The notes under the pieces were generated by a model, which worked only from the letters and a program-made list of their open reading frames with translations, ran no database searches and was not told the DNA's origin. Below, one piece after another: positions 2,808 through 21,777 of a stretch of DNA of 38,873 nucleotides; position 1 is the first letter of the stretch, and every line of letters starts with the position of its first letter. The DNA is taken from contig CALEHE010000168.1 of the NCBI GenBank assembly GCA_937876415.1, positions 1-38,873 of the forward strand. The letters are read 5' to 3'. This stretch comes from an uncultured Actinomycetes bacterium. Lineage in GTDB: Bacteria > Actinomycetota > Acidimicrobiia > Acidimicrobiales > Ilumatobacteraceae. The position numbers and the translations under genes were made by a program.

Positions 2808-3920
2808 TCACTCGTATACGAGAACTCCGCGAATGTTTTCTCCAGCCCGCATGGCTTCGTAGCCGTCGTTGACGCCTTCGAGCGAATAGGTGCGGGTTAC
2901 AAGACCATCAAGATCGAGCTGGCCTTCGCGATACAAACCAGCCAACTTGGGAATGTCGGCCCGGGGGTTGCCCGAACCAAACAGCGAACCGACCACTTGC
3001 TTTTCCATCAAGGTGACGTCGAGTAGGTTCATCGTGACACCCATTTCCATGGCGGGGTGGATGTTGGTGACGACCACTCGTCCCCGCTTTGAGGCCAACG
3101 CCATTGCTTCAGCCATGAGGGCCCCCGAACCGACGCCCATGGTCAAGATGACCTTGTTCGCCATAGTTCCCCAGGTAACTTCTTGAAGCAACGCCACCGC
3201 ATCAGTCATTGACGCGGCAGTGTGGGTCGCGCCAAATTCCATGGCCTTTTCGCGCTTGAACTCAACAGGGTCGATGGCGATGATGCGCTTCGCACCAGCC
3301 AAACGAGCACCCTGAATGGCGTTAGCACCGATTCCGCCGACGCCAACAACCGCAACCGTATCGCCAGGCTTAACCTCGGCCGCATACACCGCCGAACCCC
3401 AGCCCGTCACCACTCCGCAGCCCAAGAGGCAGACCTTGTCAAATGGCAGGTCGTTGTCCACCTTGATGCAACTGGCTTCGTTGACCACGGTGTGGTGGGC
3501 GAAGGTACCGAGCAGGCACATCAGACCCAGTTCTTGACCTCGGGCATGGTGACGTGAGCCGCCGTCAGTGATTTGGCGTCCACCGCCCATAAGCGCACCA
3601 AGGTCGCACAGGTTTTGGTGTCCAGTTGAACAGCTTGGACAACGTCCGCACGACGGAATAAAACCAAAGACCACGTGGTCGCCTGGGGCGAGCCAGCTAA
3701 CGCCTTCGCCAACTTTGCGCACGATTCCCGCGCCCTCGTGGCCACCAATGATCGGCAGGGCAAACGGAAGGTCGCCCGTCATCAAGTGCTCGTCGCTATG
3801 GCACATTCCGGATGCCTTCATTTCGACAAGTACTTCACCGGCTTTGGGATCGTCAAGCTCGATCTCTTCAACACTCCAGGGCTTATTGGTTTCCCACAAA
3901 ATTGCGGCCTTAGATTTCAT
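2808..3920 (-). CDS. NDMA-dependent (nicotinoprotein) alcohol dehydrogenase, short form
   Basis: 370 residues from the ATG at 3920 (MKSKAAILWETNK). This start aligns with the paralogue and is preceded by a G-rich GGGGGTG stretch; the frame stays open to 3974 but the extra 18 residues do not look conserved. Catalytic zinc ligands C40, H61 and C168, structural zinc cysteines C91, C94, C97 and C105, and GVGGIG at 193-198 are visible. It is a second member of the mycofactocin-linked NDMA-dependent family and is divergent from mftA. It lacks the insertion after TGDL seen in the paralogue, so the two probably differ in the substrate channel. The 110-bp region between it and mftA carries two palindromes that could control both directions. 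Confidence 0.92.
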   Translation of the reverse strand: MKSKAAILWETNKPWSVEEIELDDPKAGEVLVEMKASGMCHSDEHLMTGDLPFALPIIGGHEGAGIVRKVGEGVSWLAPGDHVVFGFIPSCGRCPSCSTGHQNLCDLGALMGGGRQITDGGSRHHARGQELGLMCLLGTFAHHTVVNEASCIKVDNDLPFDKVCLLGCGVVTGWGSAVYAAEVKPGDTVAVVGVGGIGANAIQGARLAGAKRIIAIDPVEFKREKAMEFGATHTAASMTDAVALLQEVTWGTMANKVILTMGVGSGALMAEAMALASKRGRVVVTNIHPAMEMGVTMNLLDVTLMEKQVVGSLFGSGNPRADIPKLAGLYREGQLDLDGLVTRTYSLEGVNDGYEAMRAGENIRGVLVYE

Positions 3921-3940
3921 GTGCACCCCCGTGACTAGTT

Positions 3941-3959
3941 GGTCATCGTGTCGATGACC
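3941..3959. promoter_or_regulatory. Perfect palindrome between adh and mftA (candidate operator)
   Basis: GGTCATCG-tgt-CGATGACC: two perfect 8-bp arms with a 3-base centre, about 20 bases upstream of the dehydrogenase start and 70 bases upstream of mftA. Placement and symmetry suit a dimeric repressor or activator (for example TetR or GntR type). The cognate regulator is not in the window. The regulatory role is inferred. Confidence 0.55.
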
Positions 3960-3964
3960 CGAAT

Positions 3965-3978
3965 TGATATTCATATCA
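3965..3978. promoter_or_regulatory. Second palindrome upstream of mftA
   Basis: TGATAT-tc-ATATCA: 6-bp perfect arms with a 2-base centre, 6 bases from the larger palindrome. AT-rich, so it could be an operator half of the same element or part of a promoter. Function is inferred from position only. Confidence 0.35.
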
Positions 3979-4030: not shown

Positions 4031-4171
4031 ATGGAAAGCCCGATTGTCACCGCAGATACTTCTGTCATCGAAGAGTCCCCCGTCGCCCATGTAGTTGGGG
4101 ATGCTCCCGCCATTGAAGCCGAACTGCTCATCGAGGAAATTTCCATCGATGGCATGTGCGGCGTCTACTGA
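4031..4171 (+). CDS. mftA: Mycofactocin precursor peptide MftA
   Basis: A 46-residue gene. Translating from the ATG at 4031 gives an acidic leader (about residues 1-36, including AIEAELLIEE) followed by the diagnostic C-terminus ISIDGMCGVY. In the family the final Val-Tyr is decarboxylated and cross-linked by the radical SAM enzyme MftC, then released and oxidised to the redox cofactor mycofactocin. The invariant IDGMCGVY end is intact. There is no strong Shine-Dalgarno sequence in front. It is the first gene of mftABC and is divergent from the dehydrogenase that would use the cofactor. Identification is firm because of the C-terminus and the two genes that follow. Confidence 0.96.
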   Translation: MESPIVTADTSVIEESPVAHVVGDAPAIEAELLIEEISIDGMCGVY

Positions 4172-4200
4172 GCCCCGCTTTCACGGCAACCGAGAACGTC

Positions 4201-4479
4201 ATGTCCGTCGCTCTCGAATCAGTTCTTGAGATTCACCCGCAAGTGGCAGTTCGTCCCGAAACATTTGGCGCGTTGGCATATCACTACGGCAATCGCCGGC
4301 TGATTTTCCTGAAGCACCCCGACGTCGTCACCGTGGTGCAATCACTCAATTCACATCCCGACGTGCAGTCAACATTGGCTGCATGCGGAGTAGCCCCAGA
4401 GCGTTGGCCGTCATTTGTTGCAGCCTTGTCATCGCTCGAAACATCGGAGGTCGTGCGTGAGCGCAAAATCGCTAGTTGA
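4201..4479 (+). CDS. mftB: Mycofactocin biosynthesis chaperone MftB
   Basis: 92 residues from the ATG at 4201 (MSVALESVLEIHPQVAVRPE). The frame is open further upstream to 4156, but that would overlap mftA and add unconserved residues. It is a PqqD-like RiPP recognition element with the typical block RPETFGALAYHYGNRRL followed by a helical C-terminus. MftB binds the MftA leader and presents it to MftC. It starts 29 bases after the mftA stop and its 3' end overlaps the start of mftC by 23 bases, indicating translational coupling. Confidence 0.95.
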   Translation: MSVALESVLEIHPQVAVRPETFGALAYHYGNRRLIFLKHPDVVTVVQSLNSHPDVQSTLAACGVAPERWPSFVAALSSLETSEVVRERKIAS

Positions 4480-5593
4480 AGAAATGAAGCGGGGCCTTGA
4501 TGCCCCTATTTGCCTCACTTGGGAACTCACCTATGCGTGCAACTTGCAATGTGTGCATTGCTTGTCGTCAAGCGGTCAGCGTGATGAGCGCGAACTCTCA
4601 ACCGAAGAAGCGAAAAAGATTCTCGACGATTTGCGTGACCTACAGGTGTTCTACATCAACATCGGTGGCGGCGAACCGATGGTGCGCCGTGACTTTTTTG
4701 AACTACTTGAATACTCAGTTGCTAATGGCATCGGTGTGAAGTTCAGTACTAACGGCGCATTCATTGATGAAGAGAAAGCCCGTCGTCTCGCGGCTATGGA
4801 TTATCTCGATATCCAAATCAGCCTTGACGGCGTTGACGCTGTCACCAACGACGCCATTCGTGGCGAGGGTTCATATGACATGGCCATTCGGGCCATGGAA
4901 AATCTGAAGGCCGCCAACTTCGGACAATTCAAAATTTCGGTTGTCGTGACTCGCCATAACGTTTCGCAACTCGATCAGTTCAAAGCATTGGCCGACCATT
5001 ACGGTGCGCAGTTACGTATCACCCGTTTGCGCCCCGCTGGTCGTGGTGCTGATACTTGGCACGAACTTCATCCGACCAATGCGCAACAACGCGAAATTTA
5101 CAACTGGTTGTTGAAGCATGGCGAAAATGTTCTAACTGGTGACTCGTTCTTCCACCTCAATGCTCTCGGTGAATCACTTCCCGGACTCAACATGTGTGGC
5201 GCTGGACGAGTGGTGTGTCTCATCGACCCCATTGGCGATGTGTACGCCTGCCCATTCGTCATCCACGATGAATTCAAAGCCGGCAATGTGCGCGACGAAG
5301 GCGGCTTTGCCAAAGTGTGGAAACAAAGCGATTTGTTCTTGTCATTGCGTGAACCACAATCTGCTGGCGCGTGCGCATCGTGTGGTGCTTTCGACGCATG
5401 TCAGGGCGGATGCATGGCCGCAAAGTTCTTCACCGGACTTCCACTTGACGGACCCGACCCCGAATGTGTGGGTGGCGATGCCGACGAAGCACTTTCAATC
5501 ATCTCGCGCGGTTCAGAACCCAAGCCGAGCATGGATCATTCAAAGCCCGTCACTCTGACGCGAAAGAAGTTGCCGGTTTCAACGGCCAGTTAA
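4457..5593 (+). CDS. mftC: Mycofactocin radical SAM maturase MftC
   Basis: 378 residues from a GTG at 4457, chosen because GGAGG at 4446-4450 lies 6 bases upstream and the protein then begins close to the family N-terminus. The radical SAM cluster motif CNLQCVHC supplies C28, C32 and C35, followed by the SAM-binding GGGEP. The C-terminal SPASM domain has the cysteines in MCGAGRVVC, YACPF, CASCGAFDACQGGC and PECV for the auxiliary clusters. MftC performs the oxidative decarboxylation and C-C bond formation on the Val-Tyr end of MftA. It overlaps mftB. The last ~25 residues after the SPASM domain are polar and probably unstructured. Confidence 0.96.
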   Translation: MSAKSLVEEMKRGLDAPICLTWELTYACNLQCVHCLSSSGQRDERELSTEEAKKILDDLRDLQVFYINIGGGEPMVRRDFFELLEYSVANGIGVKFSTNGAFIDEEKARRLAAMDYLDIQISLDGVDAVTNDAIRGEGSYDMAIRAMENLKAANFGQFKISVVVTRHNVSQLDQFKALADHYGAQLRITRLRPAGRGADTWHELHPTNAQQREIYNWLLKHGENVLTGDSFFHLNALGESLPGLNMCGAGRVVCLIDPIGDVYACPFVIHDEFKAGNVRDEGGFAKVWKQSDLFLSLREPQSAGACASCGAFDACQGGCMAAKFFTGLPLDGPDPECVGGDADEALSIISRGSEPKPSMDHSKPVTLTRKKLPVSTAS

Positions 5594-5658: not shown

Positions 5659-7554
5659 ATGTCCATAGTGAATCCGCTTTCTATCGGTTCTCGTACCGCA
5701 CCCAATCGGGTGATGTTCGGACCCCATGTCACCAATTTGGGTACCGACGAACGTTCATTCTCTGATGACCATGTTGCGTATTACGAACGCCGCGCTATCG
5801 GTGGATGTGGAGTCATCGTTGTTGAAGGTGCAAGCGTTCACGACAGTGATTGGCCATACGAGCGCGCACCACTTGCCAGTCGTTGCACGTCAGGTTGGGC
5901 CGATATCGCCAAGGCTTGCCACCACCATGGCTCCCTCGTCATCGCATCACTCGACCACGCCGGCGGACAGGGCTCCTCGGCTTATTCGCAACAACCGCTG
6001 TGGGCACCTTCACGTGTGCCCGAAGTTAACTCACGTGAAGTTCCAAAATGGATGGAACACGACGACATTATGGCGGTGATTGAGGGTTTCGGTGCAGCCA
6101 CTCGTCTCGCAATCGGTGCTGGGTGTGATGGTGTTGAGATCAACGCTGGCCAACACAGTTTGGTTCGTCAGTTTTTGTCCGGTCTCACCAATCAGCGTGG
6201 CGATGAATACGCAGATCGTATGTTGTTCTCCCGACAAGTTGTCCATGCAGTACGCAGTGCGGCAATTGCGATTCGTCCTGATGCAATTGTTGGTTTGCGG
6301 TTGTCGTGTGATGAGCTTGCTCCGTGGGCCGGAATTACACCTGAGATGGCTCCCGAAATCGCTCGCGAACTCTGCGAGCTGGGTATTGATTACGTCGTTG
6401 TTGTCCGAGGCTCAATTTTCTCTGCTGAAAAAACTCGACCTGACTTTCATGAACCAACCGGTTTCAACGTTGACACCTGTCGTGCGTTAAGTGCTGTCTT
6501 ACCCGATTCCACAGCACTCTTTTTGCAAGGCTCAATTATTGATGTCGGTCAAGCCGAATGGGCCATTAACGACGGTGTGTGTGATGCGGTTGAGATGACT
6601 CGCGCGCAAATCGCCGATCCAGATCTCGTGCAAAAAATCAAAAATGGACAGCACGATCAAATTCGCCCATGTATTCGCTGTAATCAGGCCTGCCAAGTTC
6701 GCGACGCCCGTAATCCGATCGTGACCTGTATCGCCGAGCCAACTTCTGGACACGAATCGCAAGATCCCGATTGGTATCAACCAGCCAGTTCCCCCCGACA
6801 CATCACTGTGATCGGTGCGGGTGTTGCTGGTCTTGAGACTGCTCGCGTCGCATCATTACGTGGTCATTCTGTGACCATTGTTGAAAAGTCATCTCGAATT
6901 GGTGGTGTTGCTGCAATCGCTGGTCCGGGCCAACCATTAGTTGCCTGGTTGCAATCTGAAATTGAAAGGCTCGGAGTTCAAGTCGAGCTCAATCACGAAT
7001 TTGATTCGTCTTCGTTGCCCAATTTTCAAGTAGTTATTCAAGCCACGGGAGCTCAACGTGGCGTCAGCGAATACGAAATTACATCCGGCACCGAAGTTCT
7101 TGACATTGCTGAAATTCGTCGTGGAAATTCAGCACTTCCAGAGACTGGCGTAGTAGTCATTCTTGACCCTATTGGCGGACCCATCGGAGTTGCGCTTGCC
7201 GAAGAACTTGGCGAGCGAGCGATTTTGGTAACACCCGACAATATTGCGGGCAACGAGTTGTCGCGCACTGGTGATTTAGCACCAGCCAATGTGCGCCTCG
7301 CGCAACGAGGAGTTCGTATTCAACGACGCAGTGTGGTGCGTGCAGTGACCAAACGCGATTCACTTTTTGTTGTTCGTGTCCAAGATCGTTTCTCGGGTGA
7401 AATTGCCGAAATTGAATGTGCTGCTGTTGTCGATGCAGGATTCAGATTGCCGACGACTCCAATTGATGGTTCGGTTCAAGTAGGCGACTGTGTTGCACCG
7501 CGAACAATTCTTGAAGCAATCCTCGAAGCCCGCCGCGCTGCCCTCGCCCTCTAA
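5659..7554 (+). CDS. Mycofactocin-system FadH/OYE family oxidoreductase
   Basis: 631 residues with two parts. Residues 1 to about 330 form an FMN-binding old-yellow-enzyme barrel (NPLSIGSRTAPNRVMFGPH at the start; GCDGVEINAGQHSLVRQFLS in the middle). A cysteine cluster CIRCNQACQ...TC near 338-357 should bind a [4Fe-4S] cluster. From about 385 an FAD/NAD(P)-binding domain begins with GAGVAGLE. The layout is that of 2,4-dienoyl-CoA reductase/trimethylamine dehydrogenase-type enzymes, and versions of this family recur beside mycofactocin genes. It follows mftC by 65 bases on the same strand. It could pass electrons to or from mycofactocin, but the substrate is unknown. It is not MftD, which is an FMN lactate-dehydrogenase-like protein. 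Confidence 0.88.
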   Translation: MSIVNPLSIGSRTAPNRVMFGPHVTNLGTDERSFSDDHVAYYERRAIGGCGVIVVEGASVHDSDWPYERAPLASRCTSGWADIAKACHHHGSLVIASLDHAGGQGSSAYSQQPLWAPSRVPEVNSREVPKWMEHDDIMAVIEGFGAATRLAIGAGCDGVEINAGQHSLVRQFLSGLTNQRGDEYADRMLFSRQVVHAVRSAAIAIRPDAIVGLRLSCDELAPWAGITPEMAPEIARELCELGIDYVVVVRGSIFSAEKTRPDFHEPTGFNVDTCRALSAVLPDSTALFLQGSIIDVGQAEWAINDGVCDAVEMTRAQIADPDLVQKIKNGQHDQIRPCIRCNQACQVRDARNPIVTCIAEPTSGHESQDPDWYQPASSPRHITVIGAGVAGLETARVASLRGHSVTIVEKSSRIGGVAAIAGPGQPLVAWLQSEIERLGVQVELNHEFDSSSLPNFQVVIQATGAQRGVSEYEITSGTEVLDIAEIRRGNSALPETGVVVILDPIGGPIGVALAEELGERAILVTPDNIAGNELSRTGDLAPANVRLAQRGVRIQRRSVVRAVTKRDSLFVVRVQDRFSGEIAEIECAAVVDAGFRLPTTPIDGSVQVGDCVAPRTILEAILEARRAALAL

Positions 7555-7567
7555 ACCATTGGCCGAG

Positions 7568-7592
7568 AAAACCCCCCGTTTACGGTGGTTTA
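7568..7592. terminator. Imperfect hairpin between converging genes
   Basis: aaaaccccccg, loop, cggtggttta forms an interrupted stem followed by a T-containing stretch on the + strand. It lies 13 bases after the oxidoreductase stop and overlaps the end of the convergent methyltransferase gene. Stem mismatches make this a tentative call. Confidence 0.35.
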
Positions 7593-8957
7593 TTTACCCA
7601 AGGCGGGGTGATTTTGGGCTGCTTCTTGATTGCGGACGTCTATCACCGCAGCAATCGGCCGACCCGGTCCCACGACCATTGCCAGTGCGTTACCGCCACT
7701 CAATTTCTCGGGTAGCCCCGACGTAAAAATGATGAAGGGAGTGTGCGGTTCCAGTCCGGCAATCACTGCACCGCGGCCGATCGCCCGCCACAATAAATCG
7801 CCACGAGACAACCCCGGCCGCACATTTGTCAGTCCACCAGCGATGTCAAAGATAATTGTTGAACCATCATTGCGAATTGCTCGACCGGTGGCTTCAAAAC
7901 CCGTCAGCATGCGAGCTCCCCACACAATTCTGTTAAATCCGTTGCTCGTCAGAATCTCTTCGACGACATCGCGTATTGAACGATTTTCCGTATCGGTTCG
8001 CGGTTGACCTTCGTTGACTACACGATTCAAAGCCCGAGCAACGTAATTCTCATCAGTGTCAAAACCAACGAACGAACGCGATAAACGCGCTGCTGCAACT
8101 GCTGTCGAACCAGAACCCATAAATGGATCAAGAATGAGATCACCTTTGAATGAGTACAAGTCGATACACCGCTCGGCAAGAGTGACTGGAAACGGCGCAG
8201 GGTGATTCACTCGAGTTGCACTTTCGGGTTGTATTTCCCACACATCAATCGTGGCCTCAACAAATTCGTCCGATGTCGAAGTTGACACCGAAGGAAAACC
8301 TCGCTTGGCACGCTTCGCTGGCAAGATCGCTCGATCGAATCGACCTTTGCTCGCCATGATCAACCGCTCGGTTGTATCGCGTAACACTGGGTTCGTCGCT
8401 GACCTGAAAGATCCCCACGCACAACTCCCTGAAGAGCCCCGTTGCTTCAACCACACGACTTCACCACGCAACAACAGTCCAAGCTCGTCCTGCAAGATCG
8501 TGGTGATATCAGAGGCGAGCGAACGAAACGGCCGCCGTCCCAAATTGGCAACGTTGACAACGATCCGCCCACCAGGTTCAAGAACACGACGGCACTCGGC
8601 GAATACGTCAGTGAGCATCTCGAGATACTTAACATAGTCGGCTGGGATATGTCCTTCACCCAAGGCCTCTTCATAGGCCTTACCCGCGAAGTACGGCGGC
8701 GAGGTAACGACAAGTCCCACTGAGTTATCGGGGATCTGCGACATATCACGCGAATCGCCAACGAAGATCTGATTACGAACTGGATCGACCGTTAATGGAT
8801 CTGCCAATGTCTCATCTGCCGAGATATCTGGTGTTCGAAAACGCGCATAAAAAGCCGATGCATCATGACCCTCACGTTTTGATGCGCCAAAGGCCGACGT
8901 TGAGGTGCTGCGCCGTATTCGGGGCGCGTTTTCACCGTAATTCGGGACATCAGACAT
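7590..8957 (-). CDS. Orphan beta-class site-specific DNA methyltransferase with extra C-terminal domain
   Basis: 455 residues from the ATG at 8957 (MSDVPNYGEN); the frame extends to 9011 but that would crowd the divergent plsY start. Motif IV TSPPY (85-89) comes before motif I DPFMGSGSTA (277-286), which is the beta-class order. The SPPY form is common in N4-cytosine enzymes, but N6-adenine is not excluded. Residues 1-55 are low-complexity. Residues from about 320 to 455 form a further domain (VVEEILTSNGF, FDIAGGLTN, FTSGLPEKL) that I do not recognise. No restriction endonuclease gene is nearby, so it is probably a solitary epigenetic enzyme unless the C-terminal domain has nuclease ancestry. 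It converges on the mycofactocin oxidoreductase gene and is divergent from plsY. Confidence 0.88.
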   Translation of the reverse strand: MSDVPNYGENAPRIRRSTSTSAFGASKREGHDASAFYARFRTPDISADETLADPLTVDPVRNQIFVGDSRDMSQIPDNSVGLVVTSPPYFAGKAYEEALGEGHIPADYVKYLEMLTDVFAECRRVLEPGGRIVVNVANLGRRPFRSLASDITTILQDELGLLLRGEVVWLKQRGSSGSCAWGSFRSATNPVLRDTTERLIMASKGRFDRAILPAKRAKRGFPSVSTSTSDEFVEATIDVWEIQPESATRVNHPAPFPVTLAERCIDLYSFKGDLILDPFMGSGSTAVAAARLSRSFVGFDTDENYVARALNRVVNEGQPRTDTENRSIRDVVEEILTSNGFNRIVWGARMLTGFEATGRAIRNDGSTIIFDIAGGLTNVRPGLSRGDLLWRAIGRGAVIAGLEPHTPFIIFTSGLPEKLSGGNALAMVVGPGRPIAAVIDVRNQEAAQNHPALGK

Positions 8958-9043
8958 TGATGGCAGAGTACCCATCTCACGCGCGTGCCCGCGCGATACC
9001 CATGCCCACAATCTTGAGTGCGTGATAGTCCGCCATTCGCCTG

Positions 9044-13748: not shown

Positions 13749-14711
13749 TCAGCGACCTTGGAGGGCTTCGATGAGCTTGGGCAGCACCTTGTGAACGTCG
13801 CCCACGATTCCGAGGTCAGCAATTCCGAAGATCGGCGCTTCCTTGTCCTTGTTGATGGCGATGATGTTCTTAGAACCCTTCATACCCACCATGTGCTGGG
13901 TTGCGCCCGATATACCCGCAGCGATGTACACGCTGGGCTTGACAACCTTGCCGGTCTGGCCGACTTGGTAGCTGTACGGAACCCATCCCGCGTCCACGAT
14001 TGCACGTGATGCGCCAGGCGCACCCTTGAGCAACTTGGCCAAAGTCTCGATCATTGCGTAGTTGGCGCTTTCACCAAGTCCACGTCCACCCGACACAACC
14101 ACGTTGGCCTCATCGAGCTTGGGACCAGTCGTCTCTTCAACATGCACTGCGGTGACCTTGGCGGTTCCGGTCGCACCGAGATCGGGGACGCTGACGGCCT
14201 GCACTGCAGCGGCGGCGCCACCTGAAGCTTCGGGGTTGAATGACTTCGGGCGGAATGCTGCCAAGTACGGAGCACCACCGGTGAAGGTTGTCGTGACCAA
14301 AGTGTTGCCACCAAAGATTGGCGTGGTAGCCGAAACTGAATCTCCAGCGACTTCAATGTCAACACTATTGGTGAGCACGGTGCGACCGAGCTTGACCGAC
14401 AAACGAGCCATCACATCGCGGCCTTCGTATGACTGCGGGAACATGACGAGATCGGGCGATTCGCCGCCGTCAATCGTGGCCTTCATTGCCGAAGCAACGG
14501 CAACGCCTGCCAAGTTCTGGCCGTAGTCAACTGCGAAAACTTTGCTTGCGCCGTATTCGCCAAGTGCACCAGCGACCGAGGCACCGTCACCGGCAACCCA
14601 CACGCTCACTGATCCGCCAAGAGTGCGGGCCTTGGTCACCAATTCAAGTGAACCTGAAGTTGGTGCGCCATTTGCGACCTGAGCAAAAACCCAAATGTTG
14701 CTAATTCCCAT
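13749..14711 (-). CDS. etfA: Electron transfer flavoprotein alpha subunit
   Basis: 320 residues. The C-terminal FAD domain is clear: VVSGGRGLG, then [33 protein letters not shown] and [14 protein letters not shown], which bind the FAD. The N-terminal nucleotide-binding domain is shorter and less conserved. With EtfB it accepts electrons from acyl-CoA dehydrogenases and passes them to the quinone pool through an ETF oxidoreductase. It lies 72 bases after etfB on the same strand. The start ATG at 14711 follows a GGACAG-type site. Confidence 0.96.
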
Positions 14712-14767
14712 TGTTCTGTCCGTTCTCGTTCTTTGTCGTCGTTAAGTTGTTGTAGTTGTTGATCATC

Positions 14768-14783
14768 AAACCGCGAACGGTTT
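14768..14783. other. Small hairpin between etfB and etfA
   Basis: aaaccg-cgaa-cggttt, a 6-bp stem immediately after the etfB stop. It may act as a weak attenuator or an mRNA end-protecting structure within the operon. Too short to call a terminator. Confidence 0.3.
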
Positions 14784-15560
14784 TCAGATCACCTTCAAAC
14801 CTTCGAGGAAGGTCACGATCTTGCCGAATGTTTCGCCGTCATCTTCGATGACTTCACCAGCAGCACGAGCCTCGGCCTGTGCAACGTTGCTGATTTGCTG
14901 ACCAGCGCCAGCCCAGCCAACCGGAGTCACGCCAAGATCGGCAGCAGTTACTTCATCAACTGGCTTTGACTTTGCAGCCATGATGCCTTTGAAGCTTGGG
15001 TAACGAGGCTCAACAACACCAGCGGTCACTGAAATGAGGGCGGGCAGTGGGCAGGTCACTTCGTCATAACCATCTTCGGTCTGACGATCGGCCTTGAGCA
15101 CTCCGCCTTCAATCGCAACTTTCTTTGAGAAAGTTACCGAAGGCAATCCGAGAACTTCAGCGAGTTGCTCGGGAACTGTTCCGGTGTAACCATCGCTTGA
15201 TTCGGTCGCAGCGATAATCAAATCGGCGCCACCCAAACGCTGAATCGCCGCAGCCAAAATCTTTGCGGTCGTGAGTGCGTCTGAACCCTGCAATGCCGGA
15301 TCAGAAACGAGCACTGCTTTAGTTGCACCCATCGCGAGGGCGGTGCGCAAACCAGCGGTCTCGCTGTTCGGTGCCATCGACACCAAGCTGACTTCACCGC
15401 CGCCGGCTGCATCAACCAACTGCAAGGCCATTTCAACGCCGTAGCTGTCGGACTCGTCAAGGATCAATTTGCCTTCGCGCTTGAGCGTGTTTGACGAGGC
15501 GTCAAGGGCTCCGGGGTTGGCGGGGTCGGGGATCTGCTTCACACAGACGATTACGTTCAT
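14784..15560 (-). CDS. etfB: Electron transfer flavoprotein beta subunit
   Basis: 258 residues from the ATG at 15560 (MNVIVCVKQIPDP), the conserved EtfB N-terminus; the frame is open to 15611 but those residues are not family-like. Further EtfB features are DSYGVEMALQL, a nucleotide-binding region around ALAMGATKAVLV, and the TESSDGYTGTVPEQLAEVLG signature. The C-terminus carries the helical arm that wraps EtfA. It is the first gene of etfBA and is divergent from the lipid kinase gene, with 129 bases between starts. Confidence 0.96.
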   Translation of the reverse strand: MNVIVCVKQIPDPANPGALDASSNTLKREGKLILDESDSYGVEMALQLVDAAGGGEVSLVSMAPNSETAGLRTALAMGATKAVLVSDPALQGSDALTTAKILAAAIQRLGGADLIIAATESSDGYTGTVPEQLAEVLGLPSVTFSKKVAIEGGVLKADRQTEDGYDEVTCPLPALISVTAGVVEPRYPSFKGIMAAKSKPVDEVTAADLGVTPVGWAGAGQQISNVAQAEARAAGEVIEDDGETFGKIVTFLEGLKVI

Positions 15561-15689
15561 AGTTCGCCATTCTTGCGCCTTGTGCACGGTTTCACACAAC
15601 CCTTCTGACATCTAAATAAGTGACTCCCGACCTACCCATCAAGGCGTCGGCTCAACTCCTCGCTAAATGGGCTGGTACGGTCTCAGGCG

Positions 15690-20631: not shown

Positions 20632-21777
20632 GTGTCCGTCACCCGTGAACAAGTCGTTGAAGCCCTTCGTCCCGTCGAAGACCCCGAGCTCCATCGCTCC
20701 ATTGTCGATCTCGGCATGCTGCGTGATGTGCAGATTGAAGGCGGAACCGTCTCAATTCTGATTGCTCTCACGGTGGCGGGTTGCCCGCTGCGAAATGAAA
20801 TCACCAATCGAGTGACGGGCGCAGTCGCTCCCCTCACCGGAGTTTCAAACGTCAATCTTGATTTCACCGTTATGACTGACCAAGAGCGCGAAGAACTACG
20901 CATGAAGTTGCATGGCGATCCAGGTTCAACGGCTGGTCAAGGTCAAGCGCATGGTCACGCTGAAGGTCGCGCCATTCCATTTGCTGACCCCGATAACAAG
21001 ACTCGTCCTCTTTTGATTTCTTCAGGAAAAGGCGGCGTTGGCAAAAGCAGCGTCACGACCAACCTTGCAGTTGCTCTCGCCGCGCAAGGTCACACTGTCG
21101 GAGTACTCGACGCCGACATTTACGGTTATTCAATTCCGCGCATGCTTGGCGCAAATAATGATCCAGTGGCAATTGATCGCATGTTGTTGCCATCAGAGGC
21201 CTACGGAGTTCGTTGCATCTCAATTGGTTACTTTGTTCCCGAAGGTCAGGCAGTTGTCTGGCGCGGACCAATGCTGCACAAAGCCCTCGAACAATTTTTA
21301 ACTGATGTCTTTTGGGATGAACCCGATTTCTTGTTAATTGACATGCCGCCCGGCACCGGCGACATTGCATTGAGCCTGAGCCAGTACCTGCCTAAGGGCG
21401 AGGTGTACGTCGTGACGACACCACAACAGGCAGCCCAAAAAGTTGCACGCTTGTCAGCGGCGATGGCGACCAAAGTTGGGTTACCCGTTAAGGGGGTCAT
21501 CGAGAACATGTCGTGGTTCACGGGCGACGATGGCAAGAAGTACGAATTGTTTGGTAGCGGTGGCGGTCAAGAACTCGCCAATGAACTCAATGTTCCTTTG
21601 CTTGGACAGCTGCCACTTGTGCAGCAACTACGCGAAGGTGGCGATGACGGTCATCCGATCGCGGCGATTGCTCCCGAAAGCGAAGCCGGAAAGATCTTCC
21701 ACGAGATGGCCCGCAAGATTGCTGCCGACAATAAGCCGCGCAAAAAGTTCAGCAAGTTTCTAAAAGTCAACGGCTAA
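20632..21777 (+). CDS. mrp: Mrp/ApbC-type Fe-S cluster carrier P-loop ATPase
   Basis: 381 residues from a GTG at 20632, with AGGGAG about 10 bases upstream. Residues 1-75 are a MIP18/DUF59 domain (EQVVEALRPVEDPELHRSIVDLGM). After a Gly/His-rich linker the deviant Walker A motif GKGGVGKS is at 132-139, followed by DADIYGYSIPRMLG and IDMPPGTGDIAL. The family carries or inserts [4Fe-4S] clusters. The cysteine pair (CPHC) seen after ENMS in ApbC/Nbp35 relatives is absent; here the sequence is VIENMSWFTGDDGKKYELFG. It is divergent from the SufR-like gene. Confidence 0.93.
   Translation: MSVTREQVVEALRPVEDPELHRSIVDLGMLRDVQIEGGTVSILIALTVAGCPLRNEITNRVTGAVAPLTGVSNVNLDFTVMTDQEREELRMKLHGDPGSTAGQGQAHGHAEGRAIPFADPDNKTRPLLISSGKGGVGKSSVTTNLAVALAAQGHTVGVLDADIYGYSIPRMLGANNDPVAIDRMLLPSEAYGVRCISIGYFVPEGQAVVWRGPMLHKALEQFLTDVFWDEPDFLLIDMPPGTGDIALSLSQYLPKGEVYVVTTPQQAAQKVARLSAAMATKVGLPVKGVIENMSWFTGDDGKKYELFGSGGGQELANELNVPLLGQLPLVQQLREGGDDGHPIAAIAPESEAGKIFHEMARKIAADNKPRKKFSKFLKVNG

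Follow-up and report, generated by a model that had tools for sequence, protein, structure and literature searches.

Mutual exclusion of MftD and an ETF/FixCX gene module among mycofactocin loci of the family Ilumatobacteraceae

In genomes of the family Ilumatobacteraceae, MftD and a mycofactocin-associated set of ETF and Fix proteins do not occur together, and the one is swapped for the other. The DNA analysed here (the window) is the whole of contig C168 (CALEHE010000168.1, 38,873 nucleotides) from a draft assembly of an uncultured member of this family (GCA_937876415.1; 2.44 Mb, 348 contigs, 92.6% complete). NCBIfam already names OYE_1 (mycofact_OYE_1), OYE_2, mft_etfA and mft_etfB as mycofactocin associated. 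As far as our searches go, three things are new: the strictness of the exclusion, the swap in position, and the suggestion of the module as a replacement for MftD. No paper pairing mycofactocin with ETF, FixC, trimethylamine dehydrogenase, Acidimicrobi- or Ilumatobacter was found among the open-access papers searched. The redox-active centre of mycofactocin is formed by MftD (PMC7491314). The strict and repeated exclusion of MftD by ETF/Fix genes would mean that the centre can be made by a second route or that the final cofactor is a different one.

Distribution and position of the two cluster types

We searched 101 genomes of the family for MftE, MftD and mft_etfA. MftD was present in 34 and mft_etfA in 47, with no genome encoding both and 20 encoding neither (Fisher p = 4e-13, an overstated value because the genomes are related). 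Among the 71 genomes with MftE, 32 had MftD, 36 had mft_etfA, none had both and three had neither. These three are G031, with an MftD piece of 370 bits, and G024, with mft_etfA pieces of 231 bits, both below cut-off, as well as G073, which has a locus layout of the MftD type. Across the phylum, MftD exceeded its cut-off in 28 of 296 genomes. MftD loss may be linked to a lack of coenzyme F420, as one model description has it.

The usual gene order of the mft_etfA type is DedA, mft_etfA, FixC, FixX, mft_etfB, mftE, mftF, and that of the MftD type is DedA, mftE, mftF; beyond mftF both types carry the same genes. Of the mftE loci, 29 of the 36 of the mft_etfA type include ETF genes, compared with 0 of 32 of the MftD type and none of the three unassigned. 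The mftD gene itself lies off the mftE locus in 27 of 32 MftD-type loci, and adjoins mftE in five MftD-type loci of genus g13 (G034, G050, G064, G099 and, divergently, G012). Behind mftF, genes for DUF4395, Ala-racemase-like and YeiB-like proteins (L054:12342-15011) were observed in both types across much of the family.

A second difference lies downstream of mftC. Where mftC was in view in family loci, OYE_1 followed it in all three mft_etfA-type loci, in none of 12 MftD-type loci, and in neither of two unassigned loci. Within the genus of the window, OYE_1 followed mftC in 16 of 25 loci examined (some genomes having more than one) and in all five with at least 6.5 kb beyond mftC; the other nine extend just 91-1407 bases past the gene, and for one of these nine, in G056, a longer stretch shows OYE_1 further on.

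The same division is seen among named mftC loci, of which 80 were collected and 76 counted (mftC found, with at least 900 bases after it). MftD was present in 13, FixC in 12 and both in none, with OYE_1 behind mftC in 10 of the 12 FixC loci and 0 of the 13 MftD loci. A further 17 had OYE_1 without MftD or FixC, and 34, many of them short, had none of the three. L139, an MftD locus, contains a remote OYE_2 relative (32% identity). Compact clusters in Saccharopolyspora, Prauserella and Qaidamihabitans run mftB, mftC, OYE_1, OYE_2, etfA, FixC, FixX, etfB, mftF, with mftE next after mftF in four of these five loci (L144, L146, L154 and L171) and not seen in L158. Locus L144 belongs to Saccharopolyspora spinosa NRRL 18395, and its 21 kb contain no mftD.

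A rapidly built MftF tree (65 proteins, 63 of them labelled by type) requires at least seven changes of cluster type, four of them forced by starred branches. The four independent pairs on starred branches all went opposite ways (p = 0.125), which is too few for significance. Type was nevertheless strongly clustered on the tree, with seven changes against 20.5 in shuffles, as would be expected if two cluster types had been inherited or transferred whole and their exclusion were an accident, mftD being present and unassembled. The genomes of the genus are indeed drafts. We consider this explanation very improbable, given that MftD (TIGR03966) exceeded its cut-off in none of the 24 genus genomes, own genome included, among them one of seven contigs and 97% completeness, and that genera g2 and g13 each contain both types, never within one genome. 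Moreover, the flanking genes are common to both types, indicating that the module was exchanged inside a kept locus. A practical consequence is that mftD is an unsafe marker for the mycofactocin pathway.

Mycofactocin genes of the window and the second locus

Three plus-strand genes of the window form an mftABC set, which an earlier note on this DNA had read as intact. The profile scan bears this out, each product scoring above its curated NCBIfam cut-off, and no frame error was seen in mftA or mftC. The precursor gene mftA (4031-4171) encodes 46 residues ending in ISIDGMCGVY (TIGR03969, 51.7 bits, cut-off 25), mftB (4201-4479) a chaperone (TIGR03967, 96.5 bits, cut-off 33), and mftC (4457-5593) a radical SAM maturase (TIGR03962, 628.9 bits, cut-off 265). 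The mftC open reading frame spans 4415-5593 with a GTG at 4457 as its likely start, and the protein contains CNLQCVHC, a CxxxCxxC that is presumably the radical-SAM motif. Candidate cofactor users beside these genes are two NDMA-dependent alcohol dehydrogenases on the minus strand, at 1555-2715 (TIGR03989, 548.3 bits, cut-off 440) and 2808-3974 (554.4 bits against the same cut-off). To these can be added OYE_1 at 5659-7554 on the plus strand (TIGR03996, 706.2 bits, cut-off 627.9), a FadH/OYE-type iron-sulfur flavoenzyme that is a member of the MftD-less cluster set.

The earlier note had also found no mftD, mftE, mftF or mftR nearby and had proposed a genome-wide profile search. None of the four reached its cut-off in the 20 window open reading frames scanned with NCBIfam profiles (up to position 20694), nor did the genome-wide search raise any of them above cut-off in the draft assembly. 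The best scores were 31 bits for MftD (contig C33), 56 bits for MftF (TIGR03965) and 42 bits for MftR (TIGR03968), and MftE had no match at E 1e-3. The C33 protein, the sole MftD match, was rejected as a diverged MftD, being nitronate monooxygenase-like. A place for mftD, mftE and mftF just to the left of the window would lie beyond the end of contig C168. Across the 24 genus genomes, MftC exceeded its cut-off in 23, MftE (TIGR03964) in 17 and MftF in 16, and MftR in none. Haft 2011 (PMC3023750) describes MftD, MftE and MftR as present in the majority of mycofactocin species though not in every one, and MftF as universal.

Relatives of this genome keep the later genes at a second locus. Wherever mftE and mftF lie on one contig in the genus they adjoin each other, apart from mftABC, at a distance from mftC of ~10 kb in G022 and ~46 kb in G041, and on separate contigs from it in G069 and G056. 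Locus L054 of G069 has the order OYE_2, DedA, mft_etfA, FixC-like, FixX, mft_etfB, mftE, mftF, DUF4395, Ala-racemase-like, YeiB-like. Contig C88 of our genome matches the DNA of L054 and stops inside mft_etfA, at residue 264 of 306, so that this genome's own mft_etfA is cut by a contig end. On the other flank, contig C302 matches L054 into a gene (residue 145 of 313) and stops there, and the 8.8 kb of L054 between the two matches is unmatched in our assembly. C88 and C302 are taken as neighbours because of the gene order in relatives. An assembly gap is expected to leave this pattern, a pair of contigs each interrupted within a gene on either side of a single missing stretch, and the absence of mftE and mftF here is very probably due to such a gap. 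We are accordingly confident that the organism has both genes.

A true deletion of mftE and mftF, leaving as product only crosslinked MftA or a peptide cut by another peptidase, would agree with the failure of both to reach cut-off in a 92.6% complete assembly and with MftE scores below cut-off in six other genomes of the genus. It is highly unlikely, as the two flanking contigs each stop within a gene where the missing stretch begins or ends, and seven further genes of the G069 stretch are likewise missing or cut. A metagenome bin lacking mftE and mftF can thus reflect a contig break.

The absence of mftD, mftE, mftF and mftR is therefore part artefact, for mftE and mftF, and part a real trait of the lineage, which has neither MftD nor MftR. 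The two explanations first offered each find partial support. That the genes lie elsewhere holds for mftE and mftF, which relatives have at the second locus and whose absence here coincides with contig ends. That the lineage finishes the cofactor differently is supported as regards MftD, in place of which the genus has the OYE/ETF/FixC/FixX set.

Proposed role of the ETF/FixCX module

According to PMC7491314, MftD deaminates AHDP to premycofactocin, AHDP congeners are redox inactive, and deletion of mftD in M. smegmatis leads to a build-up of AHDP and abolishes mycofactocin formation. The MftA terminus SIDGMCGVY was found in 14 of 14 loci checked (four MftD-type and ten MftD-less), and with the same end in both types the same Val-Tyr core is expected. 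It follows that the MftD-less set either supplies the missing step or ends in another cofactor.

We slightly favour the former, a split two-locus, MftD-independent mycofactocin pathway in which the OYE/ETF/FixCX module makes premycofactocin instead of MftD, the chemistry being deduced from gene content. The window would then hold the front half of the pathway, comprising precursor, chaperone and radical SAM maturase, with MftC predicted to crosslink the Val-Tyr end of MftA. The second locus, in this genome within the gap between C88 and C302, would encode MftE and MftF. OYE_1 or OYE_2, as a FadH/trimethylamine-dehydrogenase-like enzyme, may oxidise the AHDP amine, the quinone pool may receive the electrons by way of mft_etfAB, FixC and FixX, and the product would be ordinary mycofactocin. 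In its general form the proposal is that premycofactocin has another synthase, of a kind not related to MftD: a quinone-linked system in which a FadH/trimethylamine-dehydrogenase-like iron-sulfur flavoenzyme with a dedicated ETF and FixCX oxidatively deaminates AHDP. This system would have been traded with MftD several times within one family and would also operate in the compact Saccharopolyspora-type clusters. We judge the case for this broader statement to be evenly balanced. A six-gene module exceeds the needs of one deamination, which counts against reading it as an MftD substitute. The proposal suggests a job for OYE_1, OYE_2, mft_etfA and mft_etfB, so far named by association only.

The main rival explanation gives the OYE/ETF/FixCX module the job of mycobacterial MftG, returning reduced mycofactocin to its oxidised form and supplying the respiratory chain, with some other, unlinked enzyme converting AHDP to premycofactocin. 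FixC and ETF are by homology parts of respiratory chains, and the available text of PMC11778925 describes MftG as a mycofactocin dehydrogenase that requires membrane-bound acceptors and is lacking in ~25% of MftC genomes. However, as far as tested, the module excludes MftD and not a re-oxidising enzyme, and in genus g13 it is mftD that occupies the module's place. We therefore regard re-oxidation as a possible but rather unlikely role. MftG as the exchanged partner was considered separately and set aside on two weak tests: scanning 38 loci with a custom motif yielded FixC-type proteins in 11 and nothing else, and no MftG was found at E 1e-20 among 10 open reading frames of five MftD-type named loci.

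Like mycobacterial mftABCDEF, the pathway has MftA, MftB and MftC over curated cut-offs and the Val-Tyr end in the window, and MftE and MftF in the genus, but it differs in being spread over two loci and in having no MftD or MftR over cut-off.

Relatives of the module proteins and further neighbours

An ETF takes up the electrons of trimethylamine dehydrogenase. Of the trimethylamine and histamine dehydrogenase systems with ETF (1djn, 1o94, 3k30), histamine dehydrogenase (3k30) is related to OYE_1 and OYE_2 over the greater part of their length, and an iron-sulfur motif is shared. Both proteins, however, match 2,4-dienoyl-CoA reductase and allied reductases with better scores than the histamine and trimethylamine dehydrogenases. 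After the FMN barrel, OYE_1 has the 4Fe-4S cysteine motif CxxCx3Cx11C (CIRCNQACQVRDARNPIVTC, residue 338), which is not specific to amine dehydrogenases since the aligned 2,4-dienoyl-CoA reductase has a 4Fe-4S motif too. The cysteine of histamine dehydrogenase that we take to be its FMN-linking residue is lost from both proteins, the aligned site being Val in OYE_1 and Leu in OYE_2, and this alignment argues against plain membership of either in the amine dehydrogenases.

Among solved structures, mft_etfB comes closest to the beta chain of trimethylamine dehydrogenase's ETF (1o94 chain C), whereas for mft_etfA other ETFs (6fah, E 1e-28) match better than that of trimethylamine dehydrogenase (E 4e-16). 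FixC is closest to the FixC of 7koe (E 1e-78), and FixX is a 97-residue 4Fe-4S protein encoded between fixC and mft_etfB, its family match having been obtained on L065. Gene order and matches place FixC, FixX, ETF alpha and ETF beta side by side in L054. The module thus has the same components as FixABCX/EtfABCX (7koe), namely FixC, a 4Fe-4S FixX and both ETF subunits, but is embedded in a mycofactocin locus. With respect to the NCBIfam models NF038209, TIGR04503, TIGR03996 and TIGR03997 (mft_etfA/mft_etfB, mycofact_OYE_1 and OYE_2), OYE_1 exceeds its cut-off in the window and the others do so in G069; the models name an association, to which the MftD exclusion and swap are added here.

The closest named relatives of the window mftC are from metagenome-assembled genomes labelled Actinobacteria, Ilumatobacteraceae or Acidimicrobiia, plus some with odd labels. 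Two of the loci, L095 (CAMDER010000032.1) and L157 (CAMDAT010000051.1), are titled Bifidobacterium breve and have mftC genes 96% and 71% identical, respectively, to that of the window; these titles look wrong.

Beside the alcohol dehydrogenases, the minus strand of the window within 3-1540 encodes a MoxR-like AAA ATPase (AAA_5, 91.5 bits; bpMoxR, 34 bits) that scores 55.5 bits with the MadB model, below its cut-off. MadB relatives adjoin NDMA-dependent alcohol dehydrogenase and mftBC genes in many relatives, and the MadB-like ATPase is perhaps an activator of the dehydrogenases. Within the same interval and on the same strand, a protein at the contig end contains DRSGSMGG and appears VWA-like by eye, with no Pfam match. 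A DNA methyltransferase (N6_N4_Mtase, 132 bits) is encoded at 7590-9011 on the minus strand, between OYE_1 and a plsY-like gene, and its relatives hold the same position in G069, G056 and G103. The window also carries a second, ordinary ETF alpha/beta pair at 13749-15611 on the minus strand, scoring below the mycofactocin-specific cut-offs at 151 of 240 bits for mft_etfA and 81 of 200 bits for mft_etfB.
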